This document shows positions 1-20,048 of a stretch of 64,000 nt of DNA, one piece after another (position 1 is the first letter of the stretch; every line of letters begins with the position of its first letter). Below the pieces are notes generated by a model that saw only the letters and a program-made list of their open reading frames with translations, was not told where the DNA came from and did not search any database. The stretch is taken from positions 1-64,000 of the forward strand of contig JAPPCX010000003.1 of assembly GCA_028875655.1 (NCBI GenBank). Reading direction: 5' to 3'. This DNA comes from Chloroflexota bacterium. GTDB taxonomy: Bacteria; Chloroflexota; Dehalococcoidia; Lucifugimonadales; UBA3495. The translations under genes were made by a program, and so were the position numbers.

Positions 1-59
1 GTGGCAAAGATCTGCTGGGGGCCATCCCGTTGGGAGTAGCGGTAGCGTTGGTACAGCAT
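1..59 (-). CDS. N-terminus of a gene running off the left edge (possibly VWA-domain protein)
   Basis: Reverse strand from ATG at 59 reads MLYQRYRYSQRDGPQQIFAT without stop to the window edge; resembles the N-terminus of VWA-domain proteins, weak call. Confidence 0.3.
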   Translation of the reverse strand, partial: MLYQRYRYSQRDGPQQIFA

Positions 60-288
60 GGGCGACCTCCGGCCACAGGTCCGCCTCCGGCGGATGCCTG
101 GCGGCGACAATGGGCGGATGATAACACACGGCATCGGCGGGACGGGGCTGGGGTTGTCTGAATCAGGATTCGCAGGATTTGGGGATTTACAGGATTGGGG
201 CGTTCCGCATTTGGTGACGGCAACAGCCCCGGCCCGGCAAAGTCGGGGTGATATATTGGCGTTCGGGACACTTCCCAGGATTGCAGCC

Positions 289-936
289 ATGACCAGCGTT
301 TCGCAACACCAGACGTTTTTTGCCCGCGCCCTGGCCGACGGCCACGCTGAAATCAGCGGAGAGGGGCGCAACGAGCGGATTCATTACGTTGCGGCCATGC
401 ACTCGGAGCGGTGGAGCGATCCCGAGGAGAAGGTGCGGGCCGAGCTGTGGGCGGAGCTGATTTACAAGTACGAATACCTGCCGCAGAACATCGGCTTTGA
501 GGTCAACGTGCCCCGGCGGACGCCCAACGACTATGCCGACCTGGTGATTTTCAGCGATGACGAGAAGAAGATGCCCTGGTTCGTCATCGAGTGCAAGCGG
601 GGCGACTTATCCGACGCGGCCTTTGACCAGGCTATCGAGCAGGCTTGCGGCAATCGGGCCAGCCTGGGCGCGCTGTATTGCGGCGCGGTGGACGGCATCC
701 GCCGCCGCCTGCTGCGCTTTGACAAGTATCCCCCCAGCGAGCGGGAGCGCAACCATATTACCGACTTTCCGGTGCGTTACGGCGCGCCACCGCCATGGCG
801 GTTTTACAAGAACGAACCCGGCAAAGACCTGCCCGCCGTGCCCCGGGAGGAACTGCGGGCGGCCATCCGTAAGTGCCATCAAACGCTGTGGGAGGGTGGA
901 CGACGCAGCCCCATCGCCGCCTTTGTCCAAGGTTGA
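289..936 (+). pseudogene. N-terminal remnant of Type I R-M-like protein (HsdR_N/HSDR_N_2 domain)
   Basis: MTSVSQHQTFFARAL...ERIHYVAAMHSERWSDPEEKVRAELWAELI...DLVIFSDDEKKMPWFVIECKRGD...CHQTLWEGGRRSPIAAF then abrupt stop; family members normally continue into an N6_Mtase domain. Confidence 0.75.
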
Positions 937-990
937 TTCACATCCCGAACGCTGTTACCCTTCGCTGCCAACCTTATCGGAGGTGATCAA

Positions 991-1848
991 ATGGCCACAC
1001 AAGATCAGTACAAAAACTTCACTGCACGATTGAAATTGCTCATCAGCAAACGCCCTGACTTAACGACAACCACCCTCAGCAATATATTCACGATGCGGTT
1101 GATTGGGAATAAAACTCACGGAGACCTCGCGGAGATTGCAATTTCCGAATTTATCAATCAGTATATGTACGATTTCCGTTCGATACACGTCGGCAAGGAT
1201 CTGTATCGAGCCAAATCACGCGAGGAAGACATTACGATCATCAACGAAATCGACAATACGGAATTTCCAGTAAGCCTTAAAGCTTACGGAGACGGGCCTC
1301 TCCAACTCTCCACTGACAAAAATTTCACGATGTTCCCCAAGCTTGAAGAAGCGAGAGCAAGCTGGGGCGAAATAATGGAGGGGAATACTATTGATTCTGT
1401 CCTCAGTGATCCGGCATTTTCAGAATTCACAGATATAAATGTGCTTCCTCTCATTTATGATGAGAAAAACCAGCGATGCAACATTCTTGTGTTCGATTCA
1501 GAACGTGCGATTGCCGATACAGTTCGCATTGTCTATGAAATAAGTGGACGCGGCCGCAGGCATCCAGTTTACAGATTCTATAACGAATCGAACGAATACA
1601 TATGTGAAGTTCGTTACGGCGGTGCTTCTGCGAACGCACTACAGCGTGGACTATGGACTCACACGAAAAACGGGATAAATTACTTTGACAGTATCACTGG
1701 CGGGTGGATTACATACGCACATAACCACGTGTTAGTGCGGCTATTCTCACATGCACTGGTGTCCAGTGATCAGGGGCATAGTGCCGCGTTGCAGACTGTG
1801 ATCGAGGACATTGAACGCCTCAACAACATTCCGGAGTCGTCATTATGA
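991..1848 (+). CDS. Putative Type II restriction endonuclease (PD-(D/E)XK-like)
   Basis: Overlaps the downstream methyltransferase by 4 nt; contains EEDITIINE...FPVSLKAYG, a possible PD-(D/E)XK core; visibly lower GC than flanks. Confidence 0.6.
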   Translation: MATQDQYKNFTARLKLLISKRPDLTTTTLSNIFTMRLIGNKTHGDLAEIAISEFINQYMYDFRSIHVGKDLYRAKSREEDITIINEIDNTEFPVSLKAYGDGPLQLSTDKNFTMFPKLEEARASWGEIMEGNTIDSVLSDPAFSEFTDINVLPLIYDEKNQRCNILVFDSERAIADTVRIVYEISGRGRRHPVYRFYNESNEYICEVRYGGASANALQRGLWTHTKNGINYFDSITGGWITYAHNHVLVRLFSHALVSSDQGHSAALQTVIEDIERLNNIPESSL

Positions 1849-2981
1849 TTATGCAACCTCGGCTGTTTGATGGTGATGCCCCTGGTTATCTTTTCACGGA
1901 GGGGATCAAATACATCGGTTCAAAGTCAAAGATTATCCCATACATTCTCCAGATAGCTCAAGGACTAGGTGGTTCCACGGTCTTCGATGGCTTCTCTGGC
2001 ACTACCCGGGTTTCCCAAGCTTTCGCAAAATCAGGATACCGGGTCATTTGCAATGACATAGCCCCTTGGTCGGAGGTCTTTGGTACCTGCTACCTCTTGA
2101 GCAAAAAACCTGCCAGCGAATATGTTGATCTTATCAACCACCTCAATGGAGTCGTGCCGGTCGACGGCTGGTTCACAGAACACTATGGCGGCTATCCTAA
2201 CGGAGGATGCGCGGTTCAACAAGACGGCCTCAAAAAGCCTTGGCAAGTTCATAACACGCGAAAACTGGATGCTATTCGCCAAGAAATCGAGATTCTCAAC
2301 TTGCCCCCAGAAGATAAAGCAGTCGTATTGAGCAGCCTCATTTTGGCACTGGACCGTGTGGATAACACAGTAGGTCACTACGTGTCATATCTTAAGGACT
2401 GGTCAAGCCGTTCATATGACTCACTTGTCTTGCGTGTGCCAAATTTGTTCGAGTCCATGCAAGATCACAGCGTATTGCGCTGCGATATTTCTGAGATCGC
2501 TTCAAGTATTAATGCCGACATCACATATTTAGACCCTCCTTATGGTTCCAACAATGAAAAGATGCCTCCATCTCGAGTGAGGTACGCCTCTTACTACCAC
2601 GTCTGGGCTAGTGTATGCCTATTTGATGATCCCGCGGTATTTGGAAGAGCTAAGCGACGGAGCGATAGCACAGATTCCCTCGCATCATCTGCTTTTGAAG
2701 AGTTCCGAAAGAGCGTAAGCGGACGCTATATCGCTGTGGAGGCTATCGATGAAACTCTCAATATGATTCAATCTCAGTGGATTATACTGTCATATAGCTC
2801 AGGCGGCAGAGCTACCGCAGAAGAATTGCGTGATGTTATCGATAGCAACGGCAAATTGATTGATGTGGTGTCTATTGATCACAAAAAGAACGTCATGGCT
2901 TCAATGAAATGGACGCATCAATGGATTAATGATTGTAACGAATTCAATAAGGAATTTTTGTTTCTAATTGAAAAACGATGA
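1845..2981 (+). CDS. DNA adenine methyltransferase, D12 class
   Basis: KYIGSKSKIIPYI, FDGFSGTTRVSQAF (motif I) and TYLDPPYGSN (motif IV). Confidence 0.85.
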   Translation: MIMQPRLFDGDAPGYLFTEGIKYIGSKSKIIPYILQIAQGLGGSTVFDGFSGTTRVSQAFAKSGYRVICNDIAPWSEVFGTCYLLSKKPASEYVDLINHLNGVVPVDGWFTEHYGGYPNGGCAVQQDGLKKPWQVHNTRKLDAIRQEIEILNLPPEDKAVVLSSLILALDRVDNTVGHYVSYLKDWSSRSYDSLVLRVPNLFESMQDHSVLRCDISEIASSINADITYLDPPYGSNNEKMPPSRVRYASYYHVWASVCLFDDPAVFGRAKRRSDSTDSLASSAFEEFRKSVSGRYIAVEAIDETLNMIQSQWIILSYSSGGRATAEELRDVIDSNGKLIDVVSIDHKKNVMASMKWTHQWINDCNEFNKEFLFLIEKR

Positions 2982-3334
2982 TGTTTTGCTTTATTCAAGA
3001 GCGGATGAGTATCGGCATGGGCTGTTGCTCAACGGAGTTTCACGTGTTGCGGGTCAAGGATGGCGTGGAATTGCTACCCGAATATCTGGCGGCGATACTC
3101 CGCAGCCGCCTGGCGCTTTCGCAAACCGTCCACATGATGACGGGCAACACGCATCCGCGCCTGACTAATGACGACGTGGCGAACCTGACGATTCCGATAC
3201 CGTTGCTGGATGTTCAGGAGAGTATCGCCGGCGAGATAGTGTGGCGGCGGGATGAGGCGCGGCGGCTGCGTGGTGAGGCGGAAGCGGGTTGGGAAGGGGC
3301 GAAGGGGTGGTTTGAGGGGGAGTTGCTAGCGTGA
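2978..3334 (+). pseudogene. C-terminal remnant of Type I R-M specificity (HsdS-like) region
   Basis: CSTEFHVLRVKDGVELLPEYLAAILRSRLALSQTVHMMTGNTHPRLTNDDVANLTIPIPLLDVQESIAGEI is a typical HsdS second-half TRD plus conserved region. Confidence 0.75.
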
Positions 3335-12950: not shown

Positions 12951-13724
12951 CTATACCGTTGAAACCGGCTCCCCGTAAACTTCCCGGTATTCCCTGGAAT
13001 CCAAAGACGCTTCCCGTTCCGTCAGCGCTTCCACCACAATCAGTGCGACGGTATCCGCCGCGTCAGGATGCGCCAGTACATCGGAGGCTGAACTGGGGTT
13101 GGGAATGGATGCTCCGTTGGTAGCCAGATTAGCCAAGTGGCGAGCTAACGCCGGCCGCGCCGCCTTACAGGTTTGTTCAAGGGTGTTGCCGTAAGCGACA
13201 CAACCGGGGAGGTCAGGAAAGCCGACGGAAAACTCGCCGGCCGCATCCTGGCGAACCAACGCGGCGTAGATATGATCCGCGTCAGCGCCCGCTACCGGCC
13301 GCAATGCAATGCCGGCCTTGACTGCCTCGGATTCGAAAGAATCTTCATAATAGGGCAAGTCATTCAATTCATCTTCAGTGAGCGGATCGCCGTAGATTTC
13401 GCGGTACTCGTCCGATGCCAGAAACGCCTCCAACTCCGCCTGCGCTTCTTCTTCCGTCCGTTCCGGCAGGGCTTCTACCACAATCAGTGCGATGGCATAG
13501 TCCGCGTCTTCACTAGCCAAAGCAGCATCAGGGGGGCAGGGCGGCGGGATGTGCACGCCGTCGGCGGCCATTCCTTCCAGGCACAGGGCCAAAGCTTCCC
13601 GCGCCATTTCGCGAGCTTCTTCAAAAGTATCACCGCCGGATGTACAGCCCGGAAAATCAGGAAACGTTACTCCAAAACTGCTGCCTGGGTCCTTGTGGAT
13701 CAGGGCCAGGTAAGTTCGTTCCAT
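12951..13724 (-). CDS. HicB-like antitoxin with two tandem HicB domains
   Basis: MERTYLALIHKDPGSSFGVTFPDFPGCTSGGDTFEEA and IYAALVRQDAAGEFSVGFPDLPGCVAYGNTLEQT in one ORF. Confidence 0.85.
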   Translation of the reverse strand: MERTYLALIHKDPGSSFGVTFPDFPGCTSGGDTFEEAREMAREALALCLEGMAADGVHIPPPCPPDAALASEDADYAIALIVVEALPERTEEEAQAELEAFLASDEYREIYGDPLTEDELNDLPYYEDSFESEAVKAGIALRPVAGADADHIYAALVRQDAAGEFSVGFPDLPGCVAYGNTLEQTCKAARPALARHLANLATNGASIPNPSSASDVLAHPDAADTVALIVVEALTEREASLDSREYREVYGEPVSTV

Positions 13725-13927
13725 CACCGCCTCCTTTGTGGTCGCAGCCTCACGCCAGACTGCTTTTCGATGTTCACCAGGGTTCCTATTGGGACGTCTT
13801 GCTGGGGATGGGTCACAGTGGTTGTGCCGGGTTTGTCGGGGTGTCGCATCTGGTGATGCGAACCGGTGATGTGGTGAACATACCACCCATCCTCACGCAA
13901 CAATCGCAACACCTCTCTGCTGTGCAT
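13724..13927 (-). CDS. HicA-family mRNA interferase toxin
   Basis: REVLRLLREDGWYVHHITGSHHQMRHPDKPGTTTVTHPQQDVPIGTLVNIEKQSG; stop overlaps the HicB start (TGATG). Confidence 0.85.
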   Translation of the reverse strand: MHSREVLRLLREDGWYVHHITGSHHQMRHPDKPGTTTVTHPQQDVPIGTLVNIEKQSGVRLRPQRRR

Positions 13928-15392: not shown

Positions 15393-16361
15393 ATGAAAGG
15401 CATCCGCGCTTACGAAACCGGCAGCCCCGACGTCCTCAAGTATGAAGAAATGCCTGAACCGGCGCCGGCGTCCGGCGAGGCGGTCGTCGCCATCCGCAAC
15501 ATCGGCGTCAACTACACCGACGTATCCAGCCGTAAGGGAACCAACCCGCCGGCGACGTTTCCCTGGACGCCGGGCCGGGAAGCCTCCGGCGTCGTCACCG
15601 CCATCGGTGAGGGCGTCACCGAGGTATCGGTAGGCGACCGGGTGGCCTACGCCATGCACACCGGCTCCTACGCTGAGCAGCAGGCAGTATCCGCTTGGTT
15701 GCTGGTGCGGATCCCCGATGAAATGGACTTTGAGACCGGCGCGGCCACGCTGCTCCAGTGCATGACGGCGCACTTCCTGGTCAACGACATCATCCCTTTA
15801 CGGGCAGGGCAGCGGGCGCTGGTTCACGCCGGCGCCGGCGGCATGGGCCTGCTGTTGATCCAGATGCTCAAGCGCATGGGGCTGCACGTGTACACCACCG
15901 TGTCCACCGATGAGAAAGCGGCCATGGCCAACGAGGCCGGCGCGGACGACGTGATCCTGTACACGCAGCAGGATTTCGAGGAGGAGATTCGCCGGATGAC
16001 CGATGGCGAGGGCGTCAAGATAATCTACGACGCGGTGGGCGCGACCACCTTCGAGAAGGGTTTGCGCATCCTGGGACGGCGCGGTTGCATGGCGCTATAC
16101 GGGCAGGCCGGCGGGCCGGTAGGCATGGTGGACTCCGGGATGCTGCGCAACGGGTCGCTGTTCCTGACCCGGCCGACGCTGGGCGACTACACCGCAACAC
16201 GCCCGGAGTTGCTGCAAAGGGCGGAGGAATGCCTGGCTTGGGTGCAATCCGGCGAAATCAAGCTCAACGTAACCCTGAACCTGCCGCTGTCAGAAGCGTC
16301 TGAAGCGCACCGCAGGCTGGAGGGACGGGAGACCACCGGGAAGATTTTGCTGACGCCGTGA
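15393..16361 (+). CDS. Quinone oxidoreductase (zinc-independent MDR family)
   Basis: PWTPGREASGVVTAIGEGV, ALVHAGAGGMGLLLIQMLKRMG, IIYDAVGATTFEKGL. Confidence 0.88.
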   Translation: MKGIRAYETGSPDVLKYEEMPEPAPASGEAVVAIRNIGVNYTDVSSRKGTNPPATFPWTPGREASGVVTAIGEGVTEVSVGDRVAYAMHTGSYAEQQAVSAWLLVRIPDEMDFETGAATLLQCMTAHFLVNDIIPLRAGQRALVHAGAGGMGLLLIQMLKRMGLHVYTTVSTDEKAAMANEAGADDVILYTQQDFEEEIRRMTDGEGVKIIYDAVGATTFEKGLRILGRRGCMALYGQAGGPVGMVDSGMLRNGSLFLTRPTLGDYTATRPELLQRAEECLAWVQSGEIKLNVTLNLPLSEASEAHRRLEGRETTGKILLTP

Positions 16362-16410: not shown

Positions 16411-16728
16411 ATGACTGAGGCAATTCCCTTTCAAGATAAACTGCATACGCTCACCGTTGAAGAATTCGGTGAGCAATACCGGTCAATCATCGAAGCCGTT
16501 TTCAAGCAGGACGGATTAGCCATCATCTTTGATGGCGACAAGCCTATAGTGGAGATAACCCGCTACGAAGAAGTACATGACCCCATCCGAGGCTCTCTCA
16601 AAGGGAAGATGGAAATCCACGGCGACATCGTATCTCCGCTACCGTCAGAATGGTACGCCTTACGCACCGACCAAGATGAAGAGTGGTACGGCCCGTACAC
16701 CGGCCAGGATGAGGAGCAACCTGCTTGA
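16411..16728 (+). CDS. VapB/Phd-like antitoxin
   Basis: Short acidic protein with LKGKMEIHGDIVSPLPSEWYAL C-terminal toxin-binding-like region; overlaps PIN toxin start. Confidence 0.72.
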   Translation: MTEAIPFQDKLHTLTVEEFGEQYRSIIEAVFKQDGLAIIFDGDKPIVEITRYEEVHDPIRGSLKGKMEIHGDIVSPLPSEWYALRTDQDEEWYGPYTGQDEEQPA

Positions 16729-17123
16729 TACTGCCGGACACGCACACCCTGCTATGGTATATGGCTTTAAATCCTAGGCTTGGAACACAGGCCGAACACC
16801 GGATACTAAGATCCAGAATACTCGGAGAGGTCGCATTTTCGGCGATCTCAGTTTGGGAAGTTGCCCTGCTGCTGGCGAAGGGCCGTCTCACCCTCAACGT
16901 CTCTGCCATACAGTGGCGTCAAAACTTGCTGGGCGCGGGGTTCATCGAAATTCCGGTTGACGGCGCAATCGCCGCTCGTTCCGTCGCCCTGCCTGATTTT
17001 CACGATGATCCCGCCGACCGTATCATCGTAGCCACCGCTCTGGATGGCCACCAGCTGATCACCGACGACCGCGACATACTCAACTGGCCCGGCCTGCTCA
17101 ACCGATTTCCGGCTGGCCGGTGA
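16725..17123 (+). CDS. PIN-domain VapC-like toxin
   Basis: ILPDTHTLLWYM, AISVWEVALLL, HDDPADRIIVATAL, LITDDRDI: conserved acidic residues intact; TTG start overlaps the antitoxin stop. Confidence 0.87.
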   Translation: MILPDTHTLLWYMALNPRLGTQAEHRILRSRILGEVAFSAISVWEVALLLAKGRLTLNVSAIQWRQNLLGAGFIEIPVDGAIAARSVALPDFHDDPADRIIVATALDGHQLITDDRDILNWPGLLNRFPAGR

Positions 17124-17545
17124 ACGGTGCCCAAATGGCAGCTCACCGCCGCATTTACCTGGTTTCCTGCGTTTCGCAGAAAACGCCGTACCGTGCTCCC
17201 GCTCAGGATTTATATACGTCCTCTTGGTTTCAAAAAGCCCGCGCTTATGTGTTAAAGTCCGGCTCCCCTTGGTTCATTCTGTCGGCAGAGCACGGCTTGG
17301 TACACCCTGACGACGTTTTGGATCCCTACGAAAAGACCTTGAACAATATGCGCGCTGCCGAGCGACGTGCCTGGGCGGAAAAAGTCCAACATCAAATGGA
17401 AACGACGCTGCCGGACGCCGACGAGATCGTCCTTTTTGCTGGCCAGCGTTACCGAGAGTACATCGAACCCTGGTTGCGTGGCCGCTTCGTCAGTGTCCAG
17501 GTTCCGATGCAGGGCCTTCCGATTGGCAAGCAATTGCAATTGTAA
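17120..17545 (+). CDS. DUF6884-like protein
   Basis: RIYLVSCVSQKTPYRAPAQDLYTSSWFQKARAYV...WFILSAEHGLVHPDDVLDPYEKTL; GTG start overlaps the PIN stop. Confidence 0.7.
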   Translation: MNGAQMAAHRRIYLVSCVSQKTPYRAPAQDLYTSSWFQKARAYVLKSGSPWFILSAEHGLVHPDDVLDPYEKTLNNMRAAERRAWAEKVQHQMETTLPDADEIVLFAGQRYREYIEPWLRGRFVSVQVPMQGLPIGKQLQL

Positions 17546-17552
17546 TCTGAAA

Positions 17553-18245
17553 ATGAGCCGTGCTGAAGACATCGTGACGTTTTACGCTTTGCTGCAAGAG
17601 TTGGAGCAGAGCATATACGGGAAGCGCACTCTGACCGATTGCGACGGCAAAATGGATTGGCCGAAACGGGGCGTTTATTTCTTTTTCGAGCCAGTTGAGC
17701 ATCGTTCTGGCGGCGGTAGTTGCCCCAGAGTGGTTCGCGTAGGCACCCACGCAATAAAGGGAAAAGCCGACACAACATTGTGGAATCGTCTCAGGCAGCA
17801 TCGGGGAACGCTGAACCCTCCAAGTGGCAATCATCGCGGATCGGTGTTTCGCAAACTGATCGGCGAAGCACTGATCCGCCGCGATTGTCTGACCAACGGC
17901 GCCGACACTTGGGGACGTGGCAATACCGCTCCGCGTGATGTGAGGGATGTCGAGCGGCCTATCGAAATGGCAGTCAGTCGCTACATCGGCGCAATGCCGT
18001 TCCTTATCGTGCCAGTATTGGATGCTCCCGGCCCCGACAGCAAACGCGGTTACATCGAACGTAACGCTATCGCCCTGCTCAGTGCCTACAACACCGCTGA
18101 CGCTGACACGCCTTCTCCGCAATGGCTCGGCTGCCATTCTTCTAGAGAGCGCGTCCGACGCTCTGGTCTATGGAACAACGACCACGTGAACGAGGACTAC
18201 TCCCCTGAATTTCTGAATGTTCTTGCAGAGTTGTTTGGGCGATGA
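17553..18245 (+). CDS. GIY-YIG-like nuclease family protein
   Basis: RGVYFFFEP (GIY), RVVRVGTHA (YIG), LWNRLRQHRG (Arg), YIERNAIALL (Glu); begins 7 nt after the DUF6884-like stop. Confidence 0.72.
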   Translation: MSRAEDIVTFYALLQELEQSIYGKRTLTDCDGKMDWPKRGVYFFFEPVEHRSGGGSCPRVVRVGTHAIKGKADTTLWNRLRQHRGTLNPPSGNHRGSVFRKLIGEALIRRDCLTNGADTWGRGNTAPRDVRDVERPIEMAVSRYIGAMPFLIVPVLDAPGPDSKRGYIERNAIALLSAYNTADADTPSPQWLGCHSSRERVRRSGLWNNDHVNEDYSPEFLNVLAELFGR

Positions 18246-18293: not shown

Positions 18294-18556
18294 ACAAATC
18301 CGAATACCCAATCGCTGTGAAGGGGATTAGTAAGCGTCCAGCGAGGCCCAGAGAGCCGGAGTTGCTGTGAACCGGCGCCTGGCGCAGACGCCCAATGGAC
18401 CCCGGAGCCGTCCGCCGAAAGGACTCTGTTCCGCTTGATACGGAGCTAAGTAGGCCGGAACGCCTGGGCCGCGTTATTCGCCCAACCAACACCGTACGCA
18501 GGGTGGCATTGCGACCATTTGGCTCGTCCCTCAAGGGACGGGCTTTTTCTTTTGCC
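18294..18556 (+). promoter_or_regulatory. T-box leader, predicted tRNA-Trp specific
   Basis: AGTA and AGAGAGCCGG...GCTGTGAACCGG stem I elements, CCAATGGACCCCGGAGCC specifier region (TGG at 18396-18398), T-box GCAGGGTGGCATTGCG, terminator, then trpE. Confidence 0.88.
18522..18552 (+). terminator. Intrinsic terminator of the T-box leader
   Basis: GCTCGTCCC-TCAA-GGGACGGGC followed by TTTTTCTTTT. Confidence 0.85.
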
Positions 18557-18587
18557 ATCCACTTCAAACTGCATTGGACACCATACC

Positions 18588-20048
18588 GTGAGCACGTACT
18601 ATCCTACATTGGAACAAGTTAGATCCCTGGCCGGTCAGGGCAACCTCTGCCCTGTCTATCGCACCATCAACGCCGACCTGGAGACTCCCGTGTCGGCCTA
18701 CCTGAAGGTGGCCCGCCCGCCGTACTCCTTCCTGCTGGAATCGGTGGCCGGCGGCGAGCGCATCGGGCGCTACAGCTTTATCGGCACCGAACCCTACGAC
18801 GTTTTCAGCACCGGCGCCGATCAACCGTCCGGTCAGGTTGACCCGTTGACCCTGGTGGAACGGGAAATGGACTCGTTCCAACTCATCCCCGTTGAGGGTC
18901 TGCCTCCGTTCCATGGCGGCGGCGTGGGTTACGTGGCCTACGACGCCGTGCATTACTTCGAGCCGCGCGTGCCCATGCTGGAGTCGGATCCGCAGGGCCT
19001 GCCCGAGTCGGTGTTCATGTTCACCGATACCCTGCTGGTGTTCGACCATCTGCGCCACGACATCAAGGTGGTCAGCCACGCCCGGCTGGACAATGGTGAT
19101 ATCGACGCCGCCTACAAGGCGGCCATCGCCAAGATCGAGCGCATGGTGGATCGCTTGGAACGTCCTCTGGAAATCCCGGCCGAATTGCTGGCAAGCCCTG
19201 CCGTAACGTCCGGCGGGGAGTTCACCTCCAACTTCACCGTTCCCGAATACGAGGCCGTGGTGGACAAGTGCGTCGAGTACATTTACGCCGGCGACGTTAT
19301 CCAGGTGGTCAACTCACAACGGTTCAGCCGGCGCACCGACGCCCACCCCTTCCAGGTGTACCGCGCCCTGCGAGGCAGCAACCCGTCGCCCTACATGTAC
19401 TACCTGGACCTCAACGGCTTCCAGATTGTCGGCGCGGCCATCGAGACGGTAGCCACCGTGCACGACGGCATCGTCAACACACATCCCATCGCCGGCACCC
19501 GCCCGCGAGGCCAGACGCCGGCCGAGGACGCAGCGCTTGAAGCGGAACTGAAAGGCAGCGAAAAGCAGCAGGCCGAGCACATCATGCTGCTGGACCTGGG
19601 GCGCAACGACATCGGCCGCGTCAGCGTGCCCGGCACCGTCGAGGTCACACAGTACATGGACGTGGAACGGTTCTCCCACGTCATGCACCTGGTGTCCCAC
19701 GTGGAAGGCCAGCTGCGCCCCGACATGACGCCCTACGACGCGCTGCGAGCCTGTTTCCCGGCCGGCACGGTGTCCGGCGCGCCCAAGATCCGCGCCATGG
19801 AGATCATCGCCGAGGTGGAGCAGGAACGCCGCGGGCCATACGGCGGCGCGGTGGCCTACTTCAGCTACAACGGCAACATGGACACCGCCCTCGTGCTGCG
19901 CACCGGAATCTTCAAGGACGGCATCATGTACGTTCAGGCCGGCGGGGGCGTGGTCGCCGACAGTGTCGCCGAGGACGAATACATGGAAACCCGCCACAAG
20001 TCCGGCGCAATGATGCGCGCCATCGACACCGCCGAAGGCATCACCTAA
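18588..20048 (+). CDS. trpE: Anthranilate synthase component I
   Basis: PVSAYLKVARPPYSFLLESVAGGERIGRYSFIG, PSPYMYYLD, HPIAGTRPRG, RNDIGRVS, GTVSGAPKIRAMEII; GTG start after the terminator. Confidence 0.95.
   Translation: MSTYYPTLEQVRSLAGQGNLCPVYRTINADLETPVSAYLKVARPPYSFLLESVAGGERIGRYSFIGTEPYDVFSTGADQPSGQVDPLTLVEREMDSFQLIPVEGLPPFHGGGVGYVAYDAVHYFEPRVPMLESDPQGLPESVFMFTDTLLVFDHLRHDIKVVSHARLDNGDIDAAYKAAIAKIERMVDRLERPLEIPAELLASPAVTSGGEFTSNFTVPEYEAVVDKCVEYIYAGDVIQVVNSQRFSRRTDAHPFQVYRALRGSNPSPYMYYLDLNGFQIVGAAIETVATVHDGIVNTHPIAGTRPRGQTPAEDAALEAELKGSEKQQAEHIMLLDLGRNDIGRVSVPGTVEVTQYMDVERFSHVMHLVSHVEGQLRPDMTPYDALRACFPAGTVSGAPKIRAMEIIAEVEQERRGPYGGAVAYFSYNGNMDTALVLRTGIFKDGIMYVQAGGGVVADSVAEDEYMETRHKSGAMMRAIDTAEGIT

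Follow-up and report, generated by a model that had tools for sequence, protein, structure and literature searches.

Four genes on the forward strand of a Chloroflexota bacterium stand so close together that a sequence-only reading took them for a single coupled operon, encoding a VapB-like antitoxin, a PIN toxin, a DUF6884-like protein and a GIY-YIG-like nuclease. They lie in the first 64,000 nucleotides of contig JAPPCX010000003.1 (hereafter the window). Do these genes belong to one undescribed system, and what might the last two of them do?

Gene content of the locus

All four open reading frames have been found where the sequence-only reading placed them, on the + strand: an antitoxin gene (16411–16728, 105 aa), a PIN-domain toxin gene (16725–17123, 132 aa, TTG start), a DUF6884 gene (17135–17545, the longest frame running from GTG 17120) and the gene of a GIY-YIG-like predicted nuclease (17553–18245, 230 aa, ATG start). 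Since they are kept in four further genomes of the genus at dN/dS values of about 0.07–0.34, these frames are far from chance; they are real and under purifying selection.

The PIN protein belongs to PF01850 (Pfam, E 1e-9, 39.5 bits), and by eye its acidic-type motifs D5, WEVAL, DDPAD and TDD are present (P0002), which bears out the earlier statement that the acidic residues are intact. The overlap TTGA between the antitoxin stop and the PIN start (16725–16728) is also real; it spans 4 nt and recurs in three of four relatives examined, with CTGA in the remaining one. The antitoxin itself (dN/dS 0.07–0.27) is conserved together with the PIN gene in the genus. However, it has no family match in Pfam, NCBIfam or PADLOC, so that the proposed VapB (AbrB-like) membership is not borne out, and by eye it looks Phd/YefM-like rather than VapB. 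The pair thus resembles a type II toxin-antitoxin (TA) system in its PIN domain and its overlapping small upstream gene, but differs in an antitoxin that fits no curated family searched. A second TA pair lies near the cassette (12951–13927, − strand), with a HicA toxin (PF07927) and a HicB-like antitoxin frame that seems to contain two HicB-like units.

The third and fourth proteins match an existing entry. The DUF6884 protein scores 177.1 bits against PF21818 (E 2.3e-52), far above the cut-off of 30, in agreement with its first naming, and it matches the PADLOC profile PDC-M57A (E 3.5e-41, 138.8 bits), while the fourth protein matches PDC-M57B (E 9.9e-77, 255.8 bits). Therefore the pair is not undescribed, as had been supposed; it is already listed as the phage-defence candidate PDC-M57 (M57 below), which is uncharacterised. 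A literature search for the name 'PDC-M57' found no paper, and we know of no phage-defence test for it. The PDC entries of PADLOC are putative systems with no earlier experimental verification (PMC12409345).

An atypical DUF6884 copy

Although the frame of the DUF6884 gene does run from GTG 17120, whose overlap with the PIN stop (GTGA, 17120–17123) had been read as part of a coupled operon, this GTG is not conserved. The gene start of the relatives corresponds to ATG 17135, which lies 12 nt after the PIN stop and is preceded in some of them by a GGAGG-like site, and ATG 17135 is the likely start here as well. At the other end, the 7-nt gap before the nuclease start is present as described, but it arises because the window copy has TTG-TAA where the relatives have TGG-TTA/CTG. 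In the relatives, the DUF6884 stop overlaps the ATG of the nuclease gene, and the alignment to the PDC-M57A profile continues through the TAA of the window copy. The window protein is about 8 C-terminal residues short and misses the conserved WLSENEP-, and because of this truncation the M57 copy of the window may be impaired.

The core motifs are in place. The CxxxK motif (C17-x3-K21) and L54-S-A of the LSAxxG motif are invariant in 19 sequences, the latter motif reading LSAEHG in the window copy.

Two modules stacked at one variable site

The cassette occupies a site with well-defined borders. On the left stands a zinc-binding dehydrogenase/quinone oxidoreductase gene (15393–16361, +, PF00107, E 8e-24), which adjoins the site in relatives whether or not they carry the cassette. 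On the right is the T-box leader of trpE (18308–18534, +), whose match to RF00230 (67.3 bits, E 1.3e-14) falls below the gathering score of 93, followed by trpE (18576–20048), conserved in 14/14 genus genomes.

We have compared the site between these borders in the 14 genomes. TA, DUF6884 and nuclease genes occur together in five of them (the window genome, G005, G006, G008 and G012), and this constant order, with the tight spacing and the TTGA overlap, would fit a single integrated system with the PIN toxin as effector and with infection sensed by the DUF6884/GIY-YIG-like pair. On the other hand, the same site holds the TA alone in G001, G009 and G010, and the DUF6884 and nuclease genes without the TA in G002. 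It further holds the TA plus DUF6884 in G003, a PIN gene with an unrelated frame in G007, neither module in G004 and G011, and a transposase in G013. In addition, among the 80 loci of the survey below, a TA of the window type is carried by same-genus loci only. Because each module is found at this site without the other, TA and M57 are two separable modules stacked on each other, not one system. The idea that the TA pair belongs with the nuclease module thus finds no support, and the integrated four-gene system, to which we leave a very small probability, is rejected as a candidate on these natural combinations.

Recombination seems to reach into the cassette itself, since in G005 the TA and DUF6884 genes resemble those of G008 and the nuclease gene resembles that of G002; this pattern suggests an exchange inside the cassette.

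M57 as a two-gene unit

When genome contigs were scanned with the M57B alignment, 264 relatives came up, and we studied 80 loci among them. These span Chloroflexota, Proteobacteria, Acidobacteriota, Nitrospinae, Thermaceae, Firmicutes, haloarchaea and Thermoplasmata. In 75/80 of the M57B loci, in bacteria as well as archaea, a CxxxK protein of the YaaA/DUF6884 superfamily is adjacent or fused.

The partners come in two main forms. In type 1, to which the window pair belongs, a partner of 140 aa lies upstream of the nuclease (17 loci plus 3 fusions), whereas in the commoner type 2 a partner of about 220 aa lies downstream (44 loci, 1 fusion and 2 degraded copies), most of these pairs overlapping by exactly 4 nt. 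Other YaaA-like partners are found at 8/80 loci, some of them carrying a winged-helix or DUF7662 domain. A fifth fusion, L025, lies beyond the four among the 80 loci and comes from the same order as the window genome. Compared with the PADLOC entry, both window proteins match the component profiles almost full length in the type 1 order, A then B, while differing in the TA pair directly upstream and in the short C-terminus of DUF6884; the divergent type 2 partner matches the PDC-M57A profile weakly (2e-7). The two partner types are nevertheless related, with an hhalign E of 3e-7 and a single BLAST cluster over 61 loci. Their structural matches also agree: the L025 fusion, as modelled by AlphaFold (pLDDT 90.8), matches E. 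coli YaaA best among PDB entries (5caj, prob 1.00), and the type 2 partner likewise has 5caj as its best match.

Some loci depart from these patterns. At L086, L100 and L051, M57B is followed by a winged-helix plus YaaA-like protein (CxxxK, LSGGYG), a third partner class, with an HNH protein in between at L051. Within the genus, three type 2 loci (L034, L054 and L024) have PaREP1/HEPN-like genes of 131 aa after the pair, and at L054 (L021) PaREP1 stands in place of the DUF6884 partner, leaving the nuclease without one. A 602-aa protein (L064:1382-3187) carries an N-terminal domain of ~210 aa ahead of DUF6884 and the GIY-YIG-like domain; the suspicion by eye of an HhH-glycosylase-like N-terminus found no Pfam or PDB support and was dropped. 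We also rejected a DNA glycosylase partner at L023 (OGG-like, PF21790, 8e-6), which is below the family cut-off, is separated by a small frame and has no PDB match.

The adjacency that holds from the nuclease side fails from the other side, where a nuclease is found beside only 3/25 DUF6884 loci in the phylum. With 75/80 in one direction and 3/25 in the other, DUF6884 thus has other roles without the nuclease, whereas M57B needs a DUF6884 partner. DUF6884 is not defence-specific either, since it is widespread without the nuclease and is found in phages. A structure search has returned phage DUF6884 proteins such as A0A386KQF6 (Caulobacter phage Kronos), A0A481V9V6 and others, the best two at 33–42% identity; possibly they are counter-defence or DNA-modification enzymes.

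The nuclease tree tracks the type of partner, which has switched at least 8 times. It places the window clade next to Rhodobacteraceae, an apparent transfer of M57 between phyla. The distribution of M57 is patchy (9/301 genomes of the phylum; 12/147 relatives); phage records gave no match, 2.9 million viral contigs gave 8, and there are 9 plasmid copies, mostly haloarchaeal. Overall, M57 is a near-obligate two-protein unit, repeatedly fused and spread patchily over bacterial phyla and archaea.

Is M57B a nuclease?

GIY-YIG enzymes in general are DNA nucleases. M57B has no match in Pfam, NCBIfam or PDB, and PF01541, the GIY-YIG profile itself, does not match it. When it is aligned by hhalign with GIY-YIG proteins of its own genome, the probability is weak (0.9–3.5%), though GVY, VG and R..H come into register. 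Among the best 50 Foldseek matches of the L025 fusion model there is no GIY-YIG structure. The profile and structure comparison called for by the earlier reading has confirmed DUF6884 as PF21818 but has not recovered GIY-YIG through Pfam, PDB or Foldseek, and the GIY-YIG assignment of M57B is statistically unsupported.

The conservation pattern speaks more in favour of it. G40, Y42, R62, G64, H66, R79, H83, E138, E169 and N208 are invariant in all M57B homologues aligned at those positions, and the candidate catalytic residues are conserved across the family as predicted (Y42 in 80/80, R79 in 80/80, E169 in 81/81). GVY, R79-x3-H83 and E169 also follow each other in GIY-YIG order. Of the positions that had been called intact, those of GVY, Arg79, His83 and Glu169 hold, but the tyrosine of YIG is Arg62 in 80/80 homologues (R-[VI]-G).

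A different interpretation is that M57B is no nuclease, but an unrecognised fold that helps DUF6884 to modify bases. The lack of any significant link to a GIY-YIG profile or structure would fit this, as would the invariant residues beyond the GIY-YIG motif set (H66, R100, E138, W207-N208). Against it stand the motif order GVY, (R)VG, R79-x3-H83, E169, the modelled strand and helix order (beta-beta-alpha...beta-alpha), which agrees with the GIY-YIG layout, and the register of the weak hhalign alignments, and we consider this interpretation very unlikely. M57B is, on its motifs, GIY-YIG-like and a probable nuclease.

Defence context

The PADLOC neighbour scan has placed strong defence genes beside some M57 copies, namely HmaC (L104), HamB (L102), a type I methyltransferase (L094), ZacC (L073) and a type III restriction enzyme (L084); the expected defence neighbourhood is thus seen at some loci, but these are occurrences without a control set, and no enrichment is claimed. 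With such neighbours and the pairing in 75/80 loci, the description of the DUF6884/GIY-YIG-like pair as a conserved, experimentally uncharacterised nuclease-type module is upheld. No methyltransferase gene recurs beside the pair in the 80 loci, so that what is found there corresponds to the type IV restriction pattern of a nuclease without cognate methyltransferase, M57B being a putative nuclease. Elsewhere in the window, a probable restriction-modification island at 58–3334 (GC 46% vs 62%) encodes an HsdR-N-like protein, a 285-aa protein, a D12 adenine methyltransferase and a type I specificity-domain fragment.

What M57 may act on

Proteins related to DUF6884 give hints on the substrate. The window protein shares with YaaA/DUF328 (PF03883; 5caj) and with YfjM of Bacillus subtilis (PF21818) the 177-bit family match, the CxxxK and LSAxxG motifs and YaaA as the best structural match; the difference is that YaaA and YfjM are described as standalone, whereas the window protein comes coupled with a nuclease-like partner. 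Double-stranded DNA co-purifies with YaaA, and mutation increases when YaaA is lost (PMC4834066), while YfjM has been found among the interactors of abasic and RNA-base DNA lesions, with a flipped base predicted (PMC11701544, the Pfam paper). DpdC, to which the DUF6884 protein shows a weak profile match (2e-5), hydrolyses dPreQ0 carried in DNA to dADG (PMC12839542; the reaction is cited in PMC6884629 as well). Unlike in the Dpd 7-deazaguanine DNA-modification system, however, no other Dpd genes are among the four genes or recur beside the relatives.

Considering the DNA-acting relatives, the probable nuclease, the absence of a recurring methyltransferase, the patchiness, the turnover at the site and the defence neighbours, the simplest reading of M57 would be base-dependent restriction of foreign DNA. 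The DUF6884 protein would bind DNA and flip out an unusual base, be it phage-modified, of the 7-deazaguanine type or damaged; the base would enter the Cys/Lys pocket and be recognised or processed there, and the GIY-YIG-like partner would then cut that strand or the duplex. Incoming modified DNA would so be restricted in a type IV-like manner, with no need of a methyltransferase, and the TA pair would contribute stabilisation or abortive infection independently. The proposal as a whole, namely a variable site stacking two independent selfish or defence-type modules (a Phd/PIN TA at 16411–17123 and a type 1 PDC-M57 at 17135–18245), the second being a type IV-like restriction system for modified DNA, has in our estimation just under an even chance of being right.

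The main rival is DNA repair of the host, where DUF6884 would locate bases that are damaged or misincorporated (abasic, ribonucleotide, oxidised) for the GIY-YIG-like protein to nick alongside, as UvrC does. The lesion binding and modelled base flipping of YfjM and the DNA binding and mutation phenotype of YaaA point in this direction; a nuclease tree that follows the partner is also what an enzyme pair would give, and M57 copies occur outside obvious defence islands too, the window being an example. But the patchy occurrence, the presence and absence at one site within a genus, the apparent transfer between phyla and the defence neighbours all suit an accessory gene pair better than a housekeeping one, and we regard repair as rather unlikely.

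Action on RNA such as tRNA has less probability still. Here DUF6884 would read a tRNA base like ArcS and the partner would cleave RNA, leading to abortive infection. The second-best PDB match of the L025 fusion model is AF0587, which we take to be ArcS-like. ArcS acts on preQ0 carried by tRNA (PMC6884629). DpdC, YaaA and YfjM, the near relatives that have been characterised, in contrast act on or bind DNA. DNA is also the general substrate of GIY-YIG enzymes, and an RNA target is accordingly quite unlikely in our view.

Returning to base-dependent restriction, single proteins with each half of the proposed activity are known: by their descriptions, the anti-phage protein PD-T4-3 has a GIY-YIG domain (PMC12409345), and the anti-phage glycosylase Brig1 recognises and excises bases (PMC11078745). 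M57 would differ by joining both ideas in two chains. We further put forward, tentatively and as a rather unlikely reading, that YaaA/DUF6884-superfamily proteins with a divergent GIY-YIG nuclease may make up a widespread group of restriction systems that read bases, come in two or more architectures (type 1 A-B, type 2 B-A2) and have fused repeatedly, in which the Cys/Lys pocket would sense an abnormal base covalently or catalytically and license cleavage, distinct from the SRA/McrB-type type IV enzymes and from Brig1-like glycosylases.

New in this work are two architectures, fusions that recur, a coupling that is nearly universal and the natural combinations seen at a single site. An attractive four-gene operon has turned out to be a stack of separable modules, which is a caution for guilt by association. 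The core of PDC-M57 is the coupling of a YaaA-superfamily base-handling protein with a nuclease-like protein, found in both gene orders and fused several times independently, which gives a testable mechanism, and the survey thereby provides a lead to the function of DUF6884 and YaaA.
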